From assembly GCA_025370845.1 (NCBI GenBank), contig JAMXFF010000012.1, positions 67,465 to 131,464 on the forward strand: a DNA stretch of 64,000 bases, given 5' to 3'. The notes under the pieces were generated by a model. The model saw only the letters and a program-made list of their open reading frames with translations. It had not been told where the DNA came from and made no database searches. Shown piece by piece: positions 12,877 to 64,000 of the stretch (the first letter of the stretch is position 1; each line of letters begins with the position of its first letter). This stretch comes from Laspinema palackyanum D2a. Its GTDB lineage: Bacteria; Cyanobacteriota; Cyanobacteriia; Cyanobacteriales; Laspinemataceae. Position numbers and translations under genes: made by a program.

Positions 12877-13239
12877 ATGAACCCGACGGTGGCGATCGCA
12901 AGTAATCCTCAACCCCCATCGCCCTCCGAACCCCCGGTTCATCATATTGTCTTAATTAAACTCCAGCCCAATGTTACTCCAGAAGAAATTGAGCAAACAA
13001 TTGAAGATAACCGGCGGTTAATCAGTGCCATTCCCGGAGTTTTAGAAGTCTCATTAGGACCCAAAGCCCGGGATGACCGCGAGGTTCATCTCAAAGATTA
13101 TGACCTGTGACTCTATGTTAAACTCTCTAAAAATGCTGATTTAGATATCTACGGTCCCCATTCTAATCATCAAAAATTCCTGGCCCGCAACCGCTCAAAA
13201 ATTGCCAACATTCGGGTGATTGATTTCTACGGAGAATGA
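12877..13239 (+). pseudogene. Dabb (stress-responsive A/B barrel) protein interrupted by an in-frame TGA
   Basis: From ATG 12877 the frame encodes VHHIVLIKLQPNVTPEEIEQ and a typical Dabb ferredoxin-like fold, up to KDYDL and a TGA at 13108-13110. The same frame then continues LYVKLSKNADLDIYGPHSNH and IANIRVIDFYGE to a TGA at 13237. That is exactly the second half of a Dabb domain, with its conserved HxxHQKF-type segment. One nonsense codon therefore splits an otherwise full-length gene of about 120 codons. A sequencing error is possible, but the gene sits next to a decayed CRISPR locus, so inactivation is plausible. The first half alone would not complete the barrel. Confidence 0.8.
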
Positions 13240-13267: not shown

Positions 13268-13372
13268 TAATACCAATTCCATTAATGGTAACTACAGATA
13301 CGGCGCTGGCTAAGCACTAAATTCGGGAGCATCAGACACGATGTGTAGAGTTATTGTCGGGAATTGGTATTA
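13268..13372. mobile_element. MITE-like element, 13-bp terminal inverted repeats
   Basis: The 105-bp element starts TAATACCAATTCC and ends GGAATTGGTATTA, perfect inverted ends. It has no coding capacity. Its left 58 bp recur in inverted orientation at 16180-16240. The right end stops 6 nt before the first repeat of the CRISPR array. Confidence 0.75.
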
Positions 13373-13378
13373 AATACT

Positions 13379-15643
13379 GTGTTCAACGCCTTGCGGCATC
13401 AGAGGTTCGAGCGGCTCTATCACAAGCGAGATAGACGGGAAAATATAGTGCTCAACGCCTTGCGGCATCAGAGGTTCGAGCGGTCCCCCCCGAACGGGTG
13501 AAGAGTTCTCAGGTAGTAGTGCTCAACGCCTTGCGGCATCAGAGGTTCGAGCGGACCAAAAATGGCAAGCCGAACAAATAGCAATGGTAAGGTGCTCAAC
13601 GCCTTGCGGCATCAGAGGTTCGAGCGGTCGTTGAACGGGGGCAATTATACGGATTCTTCAAGTGCTCAACGCCTTGCGGCATCAGAGGTTCGAGCGGCGG
13701 TTGAATTGTTCCGGCATGATGCCACGTCATAGTGCTCAACGCCTTGCGGCATCAGAGGTTCGAGCGGACCAAATCATTTGATTCTGTGTGAAAATAACTT
13801 CGTGCTCAACGCCTTGCGGCATCAGAGGTTCGAGCGGAAGAAATGGCAAGCGGAACAAATAGCAATGGTAAGGTGCTCAACGCCTTGCGGCATCAGAGGT
13901 TCGAGCGGCTGTGCTTCAACCGGCCAAGCAACCGCCCAAAAATGTGCTCAACGCCTTGCGGCATCAGAGGTTCGAGCGGATAACCGAGATGAGTTATTCG
14001 ATTATCTCAGGAATATGTGCTCAACGCCTTGCGGCATCAGAGGTTCGAGCGGACATAGCGGTAAGGCAATCTTATGAATTGATGATTATTGTGCTCAACG
14101 CCTTGCGGCATCAGAGGTTCGAGCGGATGGGTTTACTACACCTATACCACCAAAATTAGAAGTGCTCAACGCCTTGCGGCATCAGAGGTTCGAGCGGTAC
14201 AATGACAACAGAGAATAGGAGGACTCATTGAAGTGCTCAACGCCTTGCGGCATCAGAGGTTCGAGCGGGTTTTCACTTCGCCAACCATTACCAGAGGATT
14301 AAGTGCTCAACGCCTTGCGGCATCAGAGGTTCGAGCGGGTCTAAGGCTGATAGCAAAGAAGCTTGCAAAGCAATGTGCTCAACGCCTTGCGGCATCAGAG
14401 GTTCGAGCGGTACTTGCTAAACTGCAAGCAATAGCGGAATCAATTGTGCTCAACGCCTTGCGGCATCAGAGGTTCGAGCGGTCGATTGCTTGTAGGATTG
14501 GTTCCGGTAATTTACGTGCTCAACGCCTTGCGGCATCAGAGGTTCGAGCGGTCCAATCCCCCCAACAGAAAAAGGCAAGTTGGTAATGTGCTCAACGCCT
14601 TGCGGCATCAGAGGTTCGAGCGGGCCTAGGTATTGGGCATATTCTTCGTTCATGGTTAGTGCTCAACGCCTTGCGGCATCAGAGGTTCGAGCGGTAAAAT
14701 TCAGTTCGTTATTTTCGACTCGCTAACCTCGTGCTCAACGCCTTGCGGCATCAGAGGTTCGAGCGGATACAATAGCCGCGTTCCTCCTCTGCCTCCTTAT
14801 TAGTGTGCTCAACGCCTTGCGGCATCAGAGGTTCGAGCGGTGTACAGAATCACTTTTAGCCCTCACCGTGGTGTAAGTGCTCAACGCCTTGCGGCATCAG
14901 AGGTTCGAGCGGCCTCCCTCCATCCTGGAGGAAGTAGCCCTCGGGTAAAGGTGCTCAACGCCTTGCGGCATCAGAGGTTCGAGCGGGAGGAGGGATTCCC
15001 CTTCGGCTATTGCGCTAGAGAAATGTGCTCAACGCCTTGCGGCATCAGAGGTTCGAGCGGAAGATTTATAATCCAATGATAGATTTTTGGGTATCTATGT
15101 GCTCAACGCCTTGCGGCATCAGAGGTTCGAGCGGAACCGAGAAAAAGGAGGAAGAAGCGGAATTAGACGTGCTCAACGCCTTGCGGCATCAGAGGTTCGA
15201 GCGGTTCTTTTGCCTGTTTGGGCTTGGTTTCCGAGTGTTTTCCAGGTGCTCAACGCCTTGCGGCATCAGAGGTTCGAGCGGAGATAATTGAACTGCCATT
15301 TCCCGCGTTCCGGGATGTGCTCAACGCCTTGCGGCATCAGAGGTTCGAGCGGTACATCTTCCCATCGCCTCCCGATGTCCGCCAGTAACGTGCTCAACGC
15401 CTTGCGGCATCAGAGGTTCGAGCGGATCATGACAACCTATTGCATCCGATACGATATAGGTGCTCAACGCCTTGCGGCATCAGAGGTTCGAGCGGCTTGA
15501 TACTCATCATCCTGGGTATTGCATTCGTCTTTACGTGCTCAACGCCTTGCGGCATCAGAGGTTCGAGCGGAGTGCCTTGGTCAGCTTCAAAAGTAGGTCT
15601 CGCATTGGTGCTCAACGCCTTGCGGCATCAGAGGTTCGAGCGG
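13379..15643 (-). CRISPR. CRISPR array 1: 32 repeats of 36 bp, 31 spacers
   Basis: On the plus strand each repeat starts GTGCTCAACGCCTTGCGG and ends AGAGGTTCGAGCGG. Spacers are about 33-38 bp. The leftmost repeat (13379) differs by one base (GTGTTC instead of GTGCTC). Degeneracy at this end, and a cas2 remnant on the minus strand beyond the right end, indicate that the leader is at 15644-15894 and that transcription is leftwards. The crRNA repeat would then end in GTTGAGCAC. Spacer 3 (13555-13591) and spacer 7 (13838-13872) share 31 aligned bases with one mismatch. I cannot assign a CRISPR type from the repeat with confidence. Confidence 0.97.
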
Positions 15644-15894
15644 GGCGCGCCCCAGAGTCTTGAGCGGGACAAAGCTCTGAACCCATTTTACACGCACCTT
15701 GGACTGAATAATCATCCCTTCACCTCCATCCCTCGACCCTCTGGGTTCACCCATCCCTCAAACCCTTACCCTCTCTTCATTCTACCCAAATTCAAGCATC
15801 ATCACCACCCTGACACCCGCTCCAAATCTAAACCCCATCAGTCTTTCACCGCATCCCAGCAGACAACAGCCTGTCACAACCCCAGGTGCTTGCA
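15644..15894 (-). promoter_or_regulatory. Probable leader of CRISPR array 1
   Basis: About 250 bases between the last repeat and the cas2 stop codon, on the side away from the degenerate repeat. It is rich in CCCT tracts and holds no credible gene. Leader function is inferred from position. Confidence 0.5.
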
Positions 15895-16188
15895 TCAAAT
15901 CACCCGATGGGACTCCTTGGGCAAGGGCCAAGAAGCGAGATGCTTATAAGAGGCAAGGCCCTGTAAGCACGGGTTGGGTAACCGGATCAACAGCAAACTA
16001 TCCTCCTCGGCCAGCACTTGCTCTAACTCCCAACGCAATTTCTCCCTTGCCTGTTGATTCAACCAACAGCGAAACATCGAATATGGGATCCGTTCCCCAT
16101 AGCCTTGTAACAGCTTATACGCCTTCCGCCAACGCTTTGGATTCCGGATGTCATAACAAACCCAATACCCATTTTGAGTCTCCCGAAT
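15895..16188 (-). pseudogene. cas2: cas2 remnant lacking its start
   Basis: The minus-strand frame reads YWVCYDIRNPKRWRKAYKLL, QGYGERIPYSMFRCWLN, then LRWELEQVLAEEDSLLLIRL and a short tail ending at 15895. This is the ferredoxin-like fold of Cas2, the integration partner of Cas1, with its usual first-strand Asp (CYD). Upstream of NGYWVCYD there is no ATG, GTG or TTG before an in-frame TAA at 16189-16191. That stop lies in the repeat copy at 16180-16240, so the start and upstream sequence have been lost by insertion or recombination. No cas1 or effector gene flanks it. The order cas2-leader-array on the minus strand is otherwise normal. Confidence 0.85.
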
Positions 16189-16240
16189 TTAGTCGGGAGC
16201 CAGCGCCGTATCTGTAGTTAACATTAATGGAATTGGTATA
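16180..16240. mobile_element. Partial inverted copy of the 13268 MITE
   Basis: About 60 bp, ending GGAATTGGTATA, is the reverse complement of the left part of the element at 13268 with a few differences (for example GTTAAC against GTAAC). Only one terminal repeat is present; the other end stops at the truncated 5' end of cas2. Confidence 0.75.
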
Positions 16241-16242
16241 AG

Positions 16243-16372: not shown

Positions 16373-18100
16373 TTAATACTTCCGTTCTTTCGGCTGGAAC
16401 TGAGTAATCGTTACGGGTCGATAGCGAATATCCACACCGGCAGGAGAATAATAGGACAAGGTATGCTTGAGGAACTGATCATCATCGCGATCGGGATAAT
16501 CCTCGCGGAAATGAGCACCTCGGCTTTCCTGGCGGTTGAGTGCACTGGCTAAAATCAATTGTCCGACTACCATTAAACTGCGTAACTCTAACGCTTCAAT
16601 AATTTCCGTGTTCCACAGTTTGCCTTTATCGTCTAAATAAATCTGCTGATACTGCTGCTGGAACTGTTCTAACTGCTTTAAACCTTCCCGCATCAGTTCA
16701 TCACTGCGAAACACGCCGCAGTGGTCACTCATGGCATCTTGGAATCCCTGACGAACAGCCCCAATGCGGTGAGTTCCAGCGAGATCGAGGAGGGATTGCA
16801 GTTCCTGTTGCGCTTGTTGGAGGTAGGGGCGATCGTCGAGGTCCGGCAATTTGCGGTTTTCCACATAGCGGGCGATCGCCGCCCCGGTGATTTTCCCATA
16901 CACCACACATTCCAGCAGGGAATTACTCCCCAGGCGATTGGCACCATGTACGGACACACAGGCGCATTCCCCTGCGGCAAAAAATCCTTCCACCAACCCA
17001 TCGGGACCGCTTCGCACCTGTCCCTCGGTATTAACGGGAATGCCCCCCATAGAATAATGCCCTGTGGGACGCACCGGCATCGGTTCATACACCGCATCGA
17101 CCCCTAACAACCGATGGGCCTCTTCCCAACAGAAGGGGATCCGGCTCATAATTTTTTCCTGTCCCATGTGTCGCAGGTCGAGGAAAACACAAGGCCCCCC
17201 GGGACGACCATCGGGATAGACCCCTCGTCCCGCGCGAATTTCCCGGGTAATTGCCCGGGAGGTAATATCACGAGGGGCTAATTCCATGCGACTGGGGGCG
17301 TAGGTTGCCATAAAGCGATCGCCCTCGCTGTTAATTAAATACGCCCCTTCCCCACGCACCGCCTCCGAAATCAACACCCCCACGGGATAGAGTCCCGTGG
17401 GATGGAACTGCACAAACTCCATATCTTGCAACGGCACTCCCGCCATTGCTGACATCGCCAACCCGTCCCCGGTAGAGGCAAAGTCATTGGAGGTGGTATT
17501 AAATACCCGTCCATATCCCCCAGTGGCAAACATCACCACTTTGGCGCGCACCACTTCCAGGCGGCCATCGAGAATATGGTACATCACCAATCCTTTGGCT
17601 TGTCCCTCTTCCAAAATCAACCGCATGACGTACCATTCTTCATAGACCTGGACCCCATAGCGGCGCAGATTATTCACCAGTTCGTGCAACATGGCATGAC
17701 CGGTTTTATCTGCGGCATAGCAGGTGCGGTTATGGGAATGGCCCCCGAAGGCCCTTTGAGCAATCCGCCCATCGGGTAACCGCGAGAAGAGAACACCCAT
17801 GTGTTCGAGGTCGATGACCACATCAGGGGCTTCCTTGGTGAGCAGTTCTACCGCATCTTGATCCGCTAAATAGTCGGACCCTTTGACGGTATCAAAGGCG
17901 TGCGCTTCCCAGCTATCGGTGGAATCGACGTTTTTGAGGGTAGCGGCGATTCCCCCTTGGGCGGCAACGGAATGGGACCGAATGGGATGGGTTTTGGCAA
18001 CTACGGCGACATCGATGCTGGGATTGATGCGCCCAATTTCCACTGCAGCGCGACACCCGGCAAGTCCGCCCCCGACGATAATGACGTCATGTTCTATCAT
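16373..18100 (-). CDS. sdhA: Succinate dehydrogenase/fumarate reductase flavoprotein subunit
   Basis: A 575-aa protein. It oxidises succinate to fumarate and passes electrons to the Fe-S subunit and the plastoquinone pool at the membrane. The FAD Rossmann motif is VIIVGGGLAGCRAA (7-20). The histidine of RSHSVAAQGG (H43) is the usual site of covalent FAD. The substrate-site segment QFHPTGLYP and the capping-domain Arg in AGRGVYPDGRPGG are present, as is the C-terminal RESRGAHFREDYPDRDD. Length is normal for the family. The Fe-S subunit gene is not nearby, which is usual in cyanobacteria. Confidence 0.92.
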   Translation of the reverse strand: MIEHDVIIVGGGLAGCRAAVEIGRINPSIDVAVVAKTHPIRSHSVAAQGGIAATLKNVDSTDSWEAHAFDTVKGSDYLADQDAVELLTKEAPDVVIDLEHMGVLFSRLPDGRIAQRAFGGHSHNRTCYAADKTGHAMLHELVNNLRRYGVQVYEEWYVMRLILEEGQAKGLVMYHILDGRLEVVRAKVVMFATGGYGRVFNTTSNDFASTGDGLAMSAMAGVPLQDMEFVQFHPTGLYPVGVLISEAVRGEGAYLINSEGDRFMATYAPSRMELAPRDITSRAITREIRAGRGVYPDGRPGGPCVFLDLRHMGQEKIMSRIPFCWEEAHRLLGVDAVYEPMPVRPTGHYSMGGIPVNTEGQVRSGPDGLVEGFFAAGECACVSVHGANRLGSNSLLECVVYGKITGAAIARYVENRKLPDLDDRPYLQQAQQELQSLLDLAGTHRIGAVRQGFQDAMSDHCGVFRSDELMREGLKQLEQFQQQYQQIYLDDKGKLWNTEIIEALELRSLMVVGQLILASALNRQESRGAHFREDYPDRDDDQFLKHTLSYYSPAGVDIRYRPVTITQFQPKERKY

Positions 18101-60977: not shown

Positions 60978-61081
60978 TTTAGGGAAAAGTGAGAATGAGC
61001 ACCGGGGCGATCGCAGTCTGAGAAGAGGGATTTGGAGGGATTTGGAGGCGATCGGTCCGGTGTTTTCATGTCATCACCGAT

Positions 61082-64000
61082 GTTTCAATCCCTGAAAGGG
61101 ATTAGGGGTCATTGGGACGGGGAATTTCTCCCACAGAGAATGGGTGATTTGCGTTTCAATCCCTGAAAGGGATTAGAGGTCATTGGGACCATTCACGGAG
61201 CTGGATTCCCGCATTTCCAACGTGGAATCTGTTTCAATCCCTGAAAGGGATTAGAGGTCATTGGGACAGAAACGGCGCGTGGGAGAAGAAACCCAATGAA
61301 GGTTTCAATCCCTGAAAGGGATTAGAGGTCATTGGGACAAGGATGCGAGATGTCTCTGGATCCTCCTGTTGCTTGGTTTCAATCCCTGAAAGGGATTAGA
61401 GGTCATTGGGACGGGCTGTTGCCTACCCAATCGGCGATCGTCGGCGTTTCAATCCCTGAAAGGGATTAGAGGTCATTGGGACCTTGGTCAAAATTTTCCT
61501 GCACCAAACCAGCCTTTTGTTTCAATCCCTGAAAGGGATTAGAGGTCATTGGGACCTTCTGCTTCTTCCTGCTATGTTTATGCTGCCTCATTTCAGTTTC
61601 AATCCCTGAAAGGGATTAGAGGTCATTGGGACTTGGGCAAAGTGCCGCTAACCAGGTTGGTAAAGTTTCAATCCCTGAAAGGGATTAGAGGTCATTGGGA
61701 CAGCCCACGAATATTATAGGGTTGCCTTGGAAAATGTTTCAATCCCTGAAAGGGATTAGAGGTCATTGGGACTTTTTCCTCTGCGGGCCTAAACATATTT
61801 TCAGAGGTTTCAATCCCTGAAAGGGATTAGAGGTCATTGGGACCAGGGTTGGATATTAGGCATTTATCCTATAAGGGGTTTCAATCCCTGAAAGGGATTA
61901 GAGGTCATTGGGACCAGCTATATTGGACTCTATCAGTTCTGGATACTCCTCGTTTCAATCCCTGAAAGGGATTAGAGGTCATTGGGACACTGGCTGAATC
62001 CAGGGGAGTTGACAGGAAAGAAATTGTTTCAATCCCTGAAAGGGATTAGAGGTCATTGGGACGTTTTGATGTGGTCGGGTAAAATCTCGGGATTTTCCGT
62101 TTCAATCCCTGAAAGGGATTAGAGGTCATTGGGACCTCATGATTGCATTCTCCTGATTGTGGTATAGGGCAGATGTTTCAATCCCTGAAAGGGATTAGAG
62201 GTCATTGGGACTTAAAAGCGAGAAGAAACGGCGCGTGGGAAACGAGTTTCAATCCCTGAAAGGGATTAGAGGTCATTGGGACTGTAGCAACACAGACCCC
62301 TAAGCATCCATAAAAAAGTTTCAATCCCTGAAAGGGATTAGAGGTCATTGGGACCAGGGTTTGGCGATCGCATCTTGGGAGGAAAAGTCGGTTTCAATCC
62401 CTGAAAGGGATTAGAGGTCATTGGGACGCTCAGTTCGAGGCACTGGTCTCGGAGAGAGGTGTTTCAATCCCTGAAAGGGATTAGAGGTCATTGGGACAGT
62501 ACCCGCCGACCTCTTGACCGCACCACCCGCACGTTTCAATCCCTGAAAGGGATTAGAGGTCATTGGGACATGGGGGCCGCGCTCTTTCTGAAATTCTAGG
62601 CTACTGCGAGGTTTCAATCCCTGAAAGGGATTAGAGGTCATTGGGACGGAGTATCAATTTATATTCCTGTCCAAAAGTCCAGTTTCAATCCCTGAAAGGG
62701 ATTAGAGGTCATTGGGACCCTTTTCCTCTTGGGTTAGGCGTGAGTCTCCGAGGTTTCAATCCCTGAAAGGGATTAGAGGTCATTGGGACCCAATGGGAGT
62801 AGCCCGATCGCCAGTCAATCCCCGTTTCAATCCCTGAAAGGGATTAGAGGTCATTGGGACTCGTCTCGAAAAATATTGGGAGATACTTCTTTTCTCGTTT
62901 CAATCCCTGAAAGGGATTAGAGGTCATTGGGACTTAAAAGCGCCAGCAGGCGGACGCCTTAGACTCTCAAGAGTTTCAATCCCTGAAAGGGATTAGAGGT
63001 CATTGGGACAAGAAGAGATTACGGACCAGTTAATTCTCATCAAGTCCGTTTCAATCCCTGAAAGGGATTAGAGGTCATTGGGACAAGGAGGCCGGTAAAG
63101 CCCCTTACCAACTTTTTCTCTTGTTTCAATCCCTGAAAGGGATTAGAGGTCATTGGGACATCAGGCGATCGCAAGAGTTTTCTACTCTGATTGGGTTTCA
63201 ATCCCTGAAAGGGATTAGAGGTCATTGGGACCGATCGCACTCTGTGATCGTATGATCACGCTCCGTGTTTCAATCCCTGAAAGGGATTAGAGGTCATTGG
63301 GACTCCCCAGGACTCCTGACAGTTTGAAAATAGGAAATTTGCTGTTTCAATCCCTGAAAGGGATTAGAGGTCATTGGGACAAAGCCGGTTGAGTAGCAAC
63401 CAAAAGAAATACAAAAGTTTCAATCCCTGAAAGGGATTAGAGGTCATTGGGACTAGAAACAGGAAGAGAGGAAAGGCGAGAGCGGAGTTTCAATCCCTGA
63501 AAGGGATTAGAGGTCATTGGGACGTTGGGCCGCCAATTGCTCCTTATCCTCCTGACTTGTTTCAATCCCTGAAAGGGATTAGAGGTCATTGGGACATCAC
63601 CCCAACCTAGGATGCGAGCTAGAGTATTTCGCGTTTCAATCCCTGAAAGGGATTAGAGGTCATTGGGACGAGGACACGGGAGGGAGGCTGTGCCGCACAA
63701 CCGGGTTTCAATCCCTGAAAGGGATTAGAGGTCATTGGGACCAATCCGGTAGGTCTGTTCAGGGAGGAAGGAAAGTGTCCGTTTCAATCCCTGAAAGGGA
63801 TTAGAGGTCATTGGGACCTATTCCCACCTAGACAACCTAGGGGAAGAGGATGTTTCAATCCCTGAAAGGGATTAGAGGTCATTGGGACAAGCGTGCTGGC
63901 ATTAACCGGGATGATGCCAAAAAATTGTTTCAATCCCTGAAAGGGATTAGAGGTCATTGGGACTAGGCCCTGCCACTGTTATGGTTGAGGGATTTTTATG
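61082..64000 (-). CRISPR. CRISPR array 2: at least 40 repeats of 37 bp, continuing past the window
   Basis: On the plus strand each repeat begins GTTTCAATCCCTGAAAGG and ends GAGGTCATTGGGAC. Spacers are about 33-41 bp; 39 are complete and a partial one follows the last repeat (63927-63963). The first repeat (61082) has one changed base (AGGGGTC for AGAGGTC), so this is the old end. Read on the minus strand the repeat ends GGGATTGAAAC, the usual 5' tag of cyanobacterial type I-D and III crRNAs. The leader and any cas genes should therefore be to the right, beyond 64000. Spacers at 61268 and 62212 share AGAAACGGCGCGTGGGA. Confidence 0.98.

Follow-up and report, generated by a model that had tools for sequence, protein, structure and literature searches.

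Orphan, or trans-served, CRISPR (clustered regularly interspaced short palindromic repeat) arrays have a leader but no working cas genes, and their repeat is also that of a complete locus elsewhere in the genome. How such arrays become detached from cas genes is rarely visible, and this is the question raised by a locus of Laspinema palackyanum D2a within a 64,000-nucleotide stretch of contig C24 (the window; G000:C24:67465-131464). There, an array of 32 repeats, its leader and a remnant of cas2 lie between two inverted copies of a miniature inverted-repeat transposable element (MITE), in the gap between two genes referred to as Dabb and sdhA. The 2,968-bp segment that begins and ends with these copies likely entered the Dabb-sdhA gap in one piece, as a composite transposon with a CRISPR leader and array for cargo: a related genome has the same gap without it, and the breaks coincide with the outer ends of the two elements. 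Within one genus it is thus possible to name a likely vehicle, the site of landing and a parent-type system (a type I-B locus on contig C105 of the same genome).

The genome of the window (G000) is a 7.41-Mb draft of 116 contigs, and C24 is a 154-kb contig. It was compared among 8 genomes of the genus (G000 to G007), 14 genomes of the family, 388 genomes of the order, and a set of 148 relatives, with loci in relatives labeled by L-numbers (L031, L059, L063, L067 to L080, and L088). The orphan array is also called the C24 array; array, leader, cas2 remnant and element 2 all read on the minus strand. The features are as follows.

13268..13270, plus strand: left TAA triplet flanking the composite, the proposed target-site duplication, equal to 16239-16241
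13271..13369, plus strand: element 1, a complete 99-bp MITE-like element with ends TACCAATTCC and GGAATTGGTA; full relatives in G002, G003 and G007
13370..13378, plus strand: TTA triplet and 6 nt (AATACT) from element 1 to the oldest repeat, unlike the C105 or G003 trailer
13379..13414, minus strand: oldest CRISPR repeat, a variant with GTTGAACAC in place of GTTGAGCAC
13379..15643, minus strand: CRISPR array, 32 repeats of 36 nt and 31 spacers of 33 to 41 nt, with the leader at the high-coordinate end
13555..13591, minus strand: spacer 29, near-identical to spacer 25
13838..13872, minus strand: spacer 25, near-identical to spacer 29
15644..15895, minus strand: leader, 252 nt
15896..16178, minus strand: cas2 remnant, first codons gone, apparently a decayed pseudogene
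16180..16238, minus strand: element 2, an inverted copy of the element's outer 59 bp that is cut short toward cas2 and contains an in-frame TAA
16239..16241, plus strand: right TAA triplet
12877..13239, plus strand: left neighbor gene, named Dabb in an earlier reading
16373..18100, minus strand: right neighbor gene, named sdhA in the same reading; the empty site is placed by its end and flank

The cargo lies between two element copies whose outer ends are both intact. An earlier, sequence-only reading of this DNA had described a 105-bp element with 13-bp inverted ends that stops 6 nt before the oldest repeat, and such a stretch, with perfect inverted ends, is indeed present (13268-13372, ending 6 nt before 13379). 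Comparison with relatives nevertheless reduces the transposed unit to 99 bp (13271-13369, TACC...GGTA), with the outer TAA/TTA as flanking triplets and the oldest repeat 9 nt away. The inverted partial copy reported at the 5' end of cas2 also exists, at 59 bp instead of the 58 bp given, and a single extra A at 16179 separates it from the cas2 homology; it is identical to element 1 at 54 of 59 positions. As that reading had also noted, the cas2 frame runs back into a TAA within element 2; no ATG, GTG or TTG occurs from there to the start of the conserved Cas2 homology. The order that it gave between the elements (cas2, leader, 32 repeats and 31 spacers) is unchanged. All repeats are identical except the one at the trailer end (31 of 32). 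Because AATACCAATTCC is present in the 7.4-Mb genome solely at the two ends of element 1, and because the 105-bp query finds two places in G000, elements 1 and 2 (E<=0.001), the element pair is not a product of chance. Two open reading frames (ORFs) of at least 100 amino acids occur inside the unit (117 and 169 amino acids); both are on the opposite strand, overlying the array, the leader and the cas2 tail. No transposase-sized or Cascade gene was found among the ORFs of at least 100 amino acids.

The sdhA-end DNA that anchors the site is present in 12 of the 14 family genomes, including all 8 of the genus, and Dabb lies beside sdhA in G000, G002, G004 and G007. Dabb-sdhA synteny had been named as a check on the proposal that the segment moved as a unit, and in G002 the gap is continuous without the cassette: in the alignment with the joined window flanks (13270|16242), the only interruptions are three gaps of one base, of which two fall at the junction. 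The break reads AATAGA (TAG) in G002 and AATAAGAC (one TAA) in G007, where the right flank is exact up to the break, AAATAAGACAAAAAACC, and about 0.8 kb of other DNA lies further left; in G004, the gap holds different filler DNA. Continuity in G002 together with the right flank in G007 indicates that the missing segment starts and stops at the outer element ends. The composite as a whole is flanked by TAA/TAA, whereas element 1 taken alone has TAA/TTA, which fits outer ends that moved together. Movement as a unit thus gains support from the G002 breaks, which equal the two outer element ends, and no cas2-array lacking the elements was found at this place among the 8 genus genomes.

The element behaves as a mobile family in its own right. 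At another place, TCA flanks the G002 copy on each side; G000 and G004 have one TCA there and no element, G005 and G006 have other DNA, and the family is thus mobile with a 3-bp duplication. The search of the genome and its relatives that had been proposed for the element gave, besides the two places in G000, copies in relatives. Across the family genomes (E<=0.001), 6 of 14 match, with one complete copy each in G000, G002, G003 and G007 and fragments in G000, G001, G003 and G004; at this threshold, there was no match in G005, G006 or six other family genomes. Matches occur in 20 of the 388 order genomes (two candidates scored per genome), outside the genus mostly as 32 to 37 bp at one end. 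As expected of a MITE, the element is short and non-coding, with terminal inverted repeats (99 bp, TACCAATTCC/GGAATTGGTA).

Flanking triplets were compared among complete copies. Fifteen order or G004 loci were read (L063 of G004 and L067 to L080), yielding five MITE-size pairs and two pairs of insertion sequence (IS) size (L069 and L070); the other eight were excluded from the triplet counts for having one end only or unclear partners. Outside the window, equal triplets flank 7 of 8 complete MITE-size copies, and all are of the form TNA: TGA/TGA in G002 (TCA on the other strand), TTA/TTA in G003, and equal triplets at five order loci (L068, L072, L073, L075 and L079), with TTA/TAA in G007. 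For IS-size copies, the triplets are equal in one of three (TAA/TAA at L088 of G006; TAA/TTA at L069 and L070). The IS630-type ISs and MITEs at L088 (G006:C28), L059, L069 and L070 all sit between TNA triplets.

The element's ends are also those of transposase-bearing ISs. The IS of G006 (contig C28, L088) reads TAA|TACCAATTCT...AGAATTGGTA|TAA around two transposase-like ORFs, the second of which is 75% identical to the second ORF of the L070 IS. The halves of the two-part L070 transposase match IS630 models (NF033545 at 135.9 bits against a cut-off of 100, plus DDE_3); the second part of the L069 transposase is shorter. In likeness to IS630 ISs and MITEs (NF033545, PF13358), the G006 IS, L069 and L070 have the element's TACCAATTC.../...GAATTGGTA ends, and L069 and L070 also have its nearby CTACAGAT / CTACAAAT stretch. 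IS630 elements usually duplicate TA, whereas the one MITE empty-site comparison here gives 3 bp (TCA). The element is therefore IS630-like by its ends and transposase, not by its duplication. This refines the sequence-only reading in two respects: the element shares its ends with an IS630-type IS, and the orphan, as set out below, is not a fresh copy of the C105 locus.

Contig C105 of G000 carries cas6, cas3, cas8, cas7, cas5, a cas4/cas1 fusion and cas2, followed by a leader and 59 repeats (57 within 3 mismatches) with 58 spacers, and was typed as I-B / MYXAN with PADLOC and NCBIfam models. Its repeat is identical to that of the orphan, and its cas2-leader stretch is identical to the orphan's at 534 of 572 positions (93%), with the alignment starting at the end of element 2. 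This supports the earlier suggestion that the segment derives from a full cas locus, for which the same repeat next to intact cas genes had been sought. The orphan has the repeat and leader of a I-B locus, and its cas complement consists of the start-less, decayed cas2. A 74-repeat array of the same type occurs in G003, which matches C105 over the compared cas stretch (within cas8, the cas4/1 fusion, cas2 and past the array) and for about 7 kb past the array; given this match around the locus, C105 appears to be the established site and C24 an additional one. A recent direct copy of C105 was considered as the origin of the orphan and rejected, as 0 of 31 spacers are in common and cas2 is 10% different. 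No spacers are common to the orphan (31) and C105 (58), or to the orphan and G003 (73). The variant repeat GTTGAACAC, last in C24, stands at position 53 of 59 in C105 and 72 of 74 in G003, although the neighboring spacers differ; this suggests shared trailer-side ancestry, but recurrent mutation may also account for it. In C105, a cluster of changes affects the first bases of repeat 33 of 59 (G000:C105:79996-80031), TTACTAAAACC..., in contrast to the single-base variants. Spacer 6 of C105 and spacer 14 of G003 are related, not identical (local score 23), hinting at a common target.

The following steps would account for the cassette: (i) the two outermost ends would have been cut as one transposon by an IS630-type transposase supplied in trans; (ii) the rest of the cas operon would have been lost, either earlier or later than the move, through a deletion with one end inside element 2 and the other near codon 5 of cas2; and (iii) the Cas6/Cascade of C105 would process and use the orphan array in trans, keeping leader and repeats working, while its Cas1-Cas2 would add spacers to it in trans. 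We infer these steps of transposition, deletion and trans use from the anatomy. The alternative that fares best, with somewhat less than an even chance, is a sub-case that overlaps this explanation, in which the whole type I-B locus arrived in a larger composite and its cas genes were deleted in place later. Element 2 keeps its outer end and has lost its inner end at cas2, the pattern left by an internal deletion, and the drift of cas2 suggests an old loss of function. Against it, no genome with a larger version was found among the 148 relatives (at most four candidates scored in each) or among the order genomes that have the exact repeat core (2 of 388), and the order of move and deletion is unreadable from one copy.

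Whether the cargo stayed in service can be approached through its substitutions. Private changes in cas2 (283 nt) number 24 in C24, 3 in C105 and 3 in G003, plus one site at which all differ; in the leader (252 nt), they number 6, 3 and 13, again with one such site. The contrast between cas2 and leader rates in C24 gives p=0.007 (281 cas2 nt, 220 leader nt), with the qualification that C24, C105 and G003 form an unresolved trio in the cas2 tree and outgroup polarization is mixed, so that some of the changes counted for C24 may lie on the stem of C105 and G003. Of 37 positions without variation among 22 other Cas2 proteins, 5 are broken in the C24 Cas2; when each of these 22 (two of them identical) was left out in turn, 17 showed no break, three showed one, one showed two, and one showed three. 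The cas2 of the orphan looks like a pseudogene and its leader looks held, and this combination is read as continued use in trans: the array is likely still read with the C105 Cas set, and possibly extended by it. The near-identity of spacers 25 and 29 is consistent with one target family having been sampled more than once.

An array that moved and is now a dead relic, neither transcribed nor extended, with a leader and repeats kept similar by youth or by gene conversion with C105, is unlikely but has observations on its side. No phage matched the orphan array; in four scans of viral contigs, neither the core of spacers 25 and 29 nor spacers 1, 2 and 3 (5 of 31 spacers) found a protospacer, and the repeat core was likewise absent from viral contigs. 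The promoter scan gave no site on the array strand, and promoter and terminator sites together were no more frequent than in shuffled sequence. The 24 changes in 283 nt of cas2 set against 6 in 252 nt of leader speak for continued service instead, as do the 31 exact repeats and the 31 spacers, which are distinct from those of C105 (58) and G003 (73), so that the array grew separately. At least 26 of the 148 relatives have matches to the orphan array, and 11 plasmid records match it, most of the hits lying at intervals suggestive of another CRISPR array. Plasmids gave no match to the element and, for the cas2-leader stretch, distant cas2 only (5 records). G004, which is without the exact repeat, has one match to the orphan array (E 2.3e-6), perhaps a protospacer, perhaps a stray repeat.

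Several observations weigh against insertion as a composite and against continued use of its cargo. A clean empty site exists in G002 alone, with TAG instead of TAA at the break, the gaps of G004 and G007 holding other DNA; in G001, G003, G005 and G006, Dabb is not beside sdhA in the stretch compared, where other DNA lies. Triplets of 3 bp match by chance fairly often in AT-rich DNA, and they are unequal (TAA/TTA) in two of three IS-size relatives as well as in one MITE copy (G007). The L070 transposase half, used as a query, had no match in G000, while 7 of the 8 genus genomes match, mostly weakly; with no transposase relative detected, the cassette is probably immobile now and stuck at its present site. 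A second composite copy was not found among the 148 relatives at the candidate depth given above, nor in G000 and G003, the 2 of 388 order genomes with the exact 30-nt repeat core. Mobility of the composite as a unit therefore rests on a single insertion, and the absence of a second copy weakens the case for an active composite but leaves that for a past insertion as it was. On the side of the cargo, another Cas2 (L031) breaks 3 otherwise invariant positions, and the decay signal is thus not unique in kind; gene conversion with C105 could also explain a similar leader in an array that is not used, and the five spacers scanned against viral contigs had 0 matches.

The array might instead have come by ordinary recombination, with two MITE copies landing beside it later and independently, given that the elements target TNA, which is common in AT-rich gaps. 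This is improbable: no array-linked DNA lies outside the elements, homology resumes at the element ends on both sides in G002 and on the right in G007, the element is scarce, with two places in the 7.4-Mb genome, and element 1 has no matched triplet of its own. An assembly artefact joining unrelated contigs is very improbable, since, draft of 116 contigs or not, the cassette lies inside a 154-kb contig with both flanks continuous with the G002 gap and has 38 differences from C105 over 572 positions, hence is not a mis-assembled copy of it.

Insertion as one composite transposon places the cassette near several known systems. MITE-bounded composite transposons carry class 1 integrons or bla genes in Acinetobacter (PMC3934969, PMC6382973, PMC10969869). 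There, as here, two non-autonomous copies bracket a cargo that is truncated at the junction, and a short duplication flanks the whole; the MITEs of those composites, each 439 bp long, are identical copies in direct orientation, the duplications are of 5 bp and the cargo is resistance genes, whereas the ends here are about 100 bp, inverted, one of them truncated, with a 3-bp triplet and a CRISPR array as cargo. Such composites are already known, and CRISPR memory as cargo would be what is new. MITEs and ISs have been described in cas genes or arrays (PMC10359306; HqIRS37 of Haloquadratum, PMC3119063), which resembles the present case in having small transposable elements in or beside CRISPR-cas DNA. 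In those cases the elements break a locus in place, whereas here the element pair bounds a cassette at a new site. Tn7-like CRISPR-associated transposons also hold CRISPR parts inside a transposon (PMC11656645); in contrast, the unit here has no transposase-sized or Cascade gene among its ORFs of at least 100 amino acids, and guided insertion is not implied. The terms MITE and orphan do not occur in the available text of that review of CRISPR in mobile elements (PMC11656645). Among the open-licence literature matches listed (titles and abstract openings), none concerned a MITE-bounded CRISPR cassette as a unit, which is weak evidence of absence.

With its leader, the repeat of C105 and no working cas genes, the window array resembles other orphan or trans-served arrays and differs from them in that the likely physical vehicle of its relocation is visible. 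As a possibility that is less likely than not, one may generalize to a guide-only transposon: IS630-type mini-ends around any leader and array would form a movable spacer bank, readable and extendable by a matching Cas set, and orphan arrays would in part be landing scars. The spread of immune memory by mobile mini-elements becomes a testable question in this genus, and the decaying cas2 beside a preserved leader offers a natural contrast for asking if an orphan array stays in service.

Other features of the contig are of minor note. The Dabb gene of G000 has an in-frame TGA at codon 78 (window 13108-13110), where G002 and G007 have glycine, and looks like a pseudogene or a sequencing error. 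A second CRISPR array with another repeat type, GTTTCAATCCCTGAAAGGGATTAGAGGTCATTGGGAC, occupies about 61060-64000 of the window (40 copies in the searched stretch), and a Cas2 match lies near it at C24:132389, just beyond the window end. Six Cas2 matches were found in G000 (two on C24 and one each on C39, C48, C52 and C105), and several CRISPR systems probably coexist in this genome.

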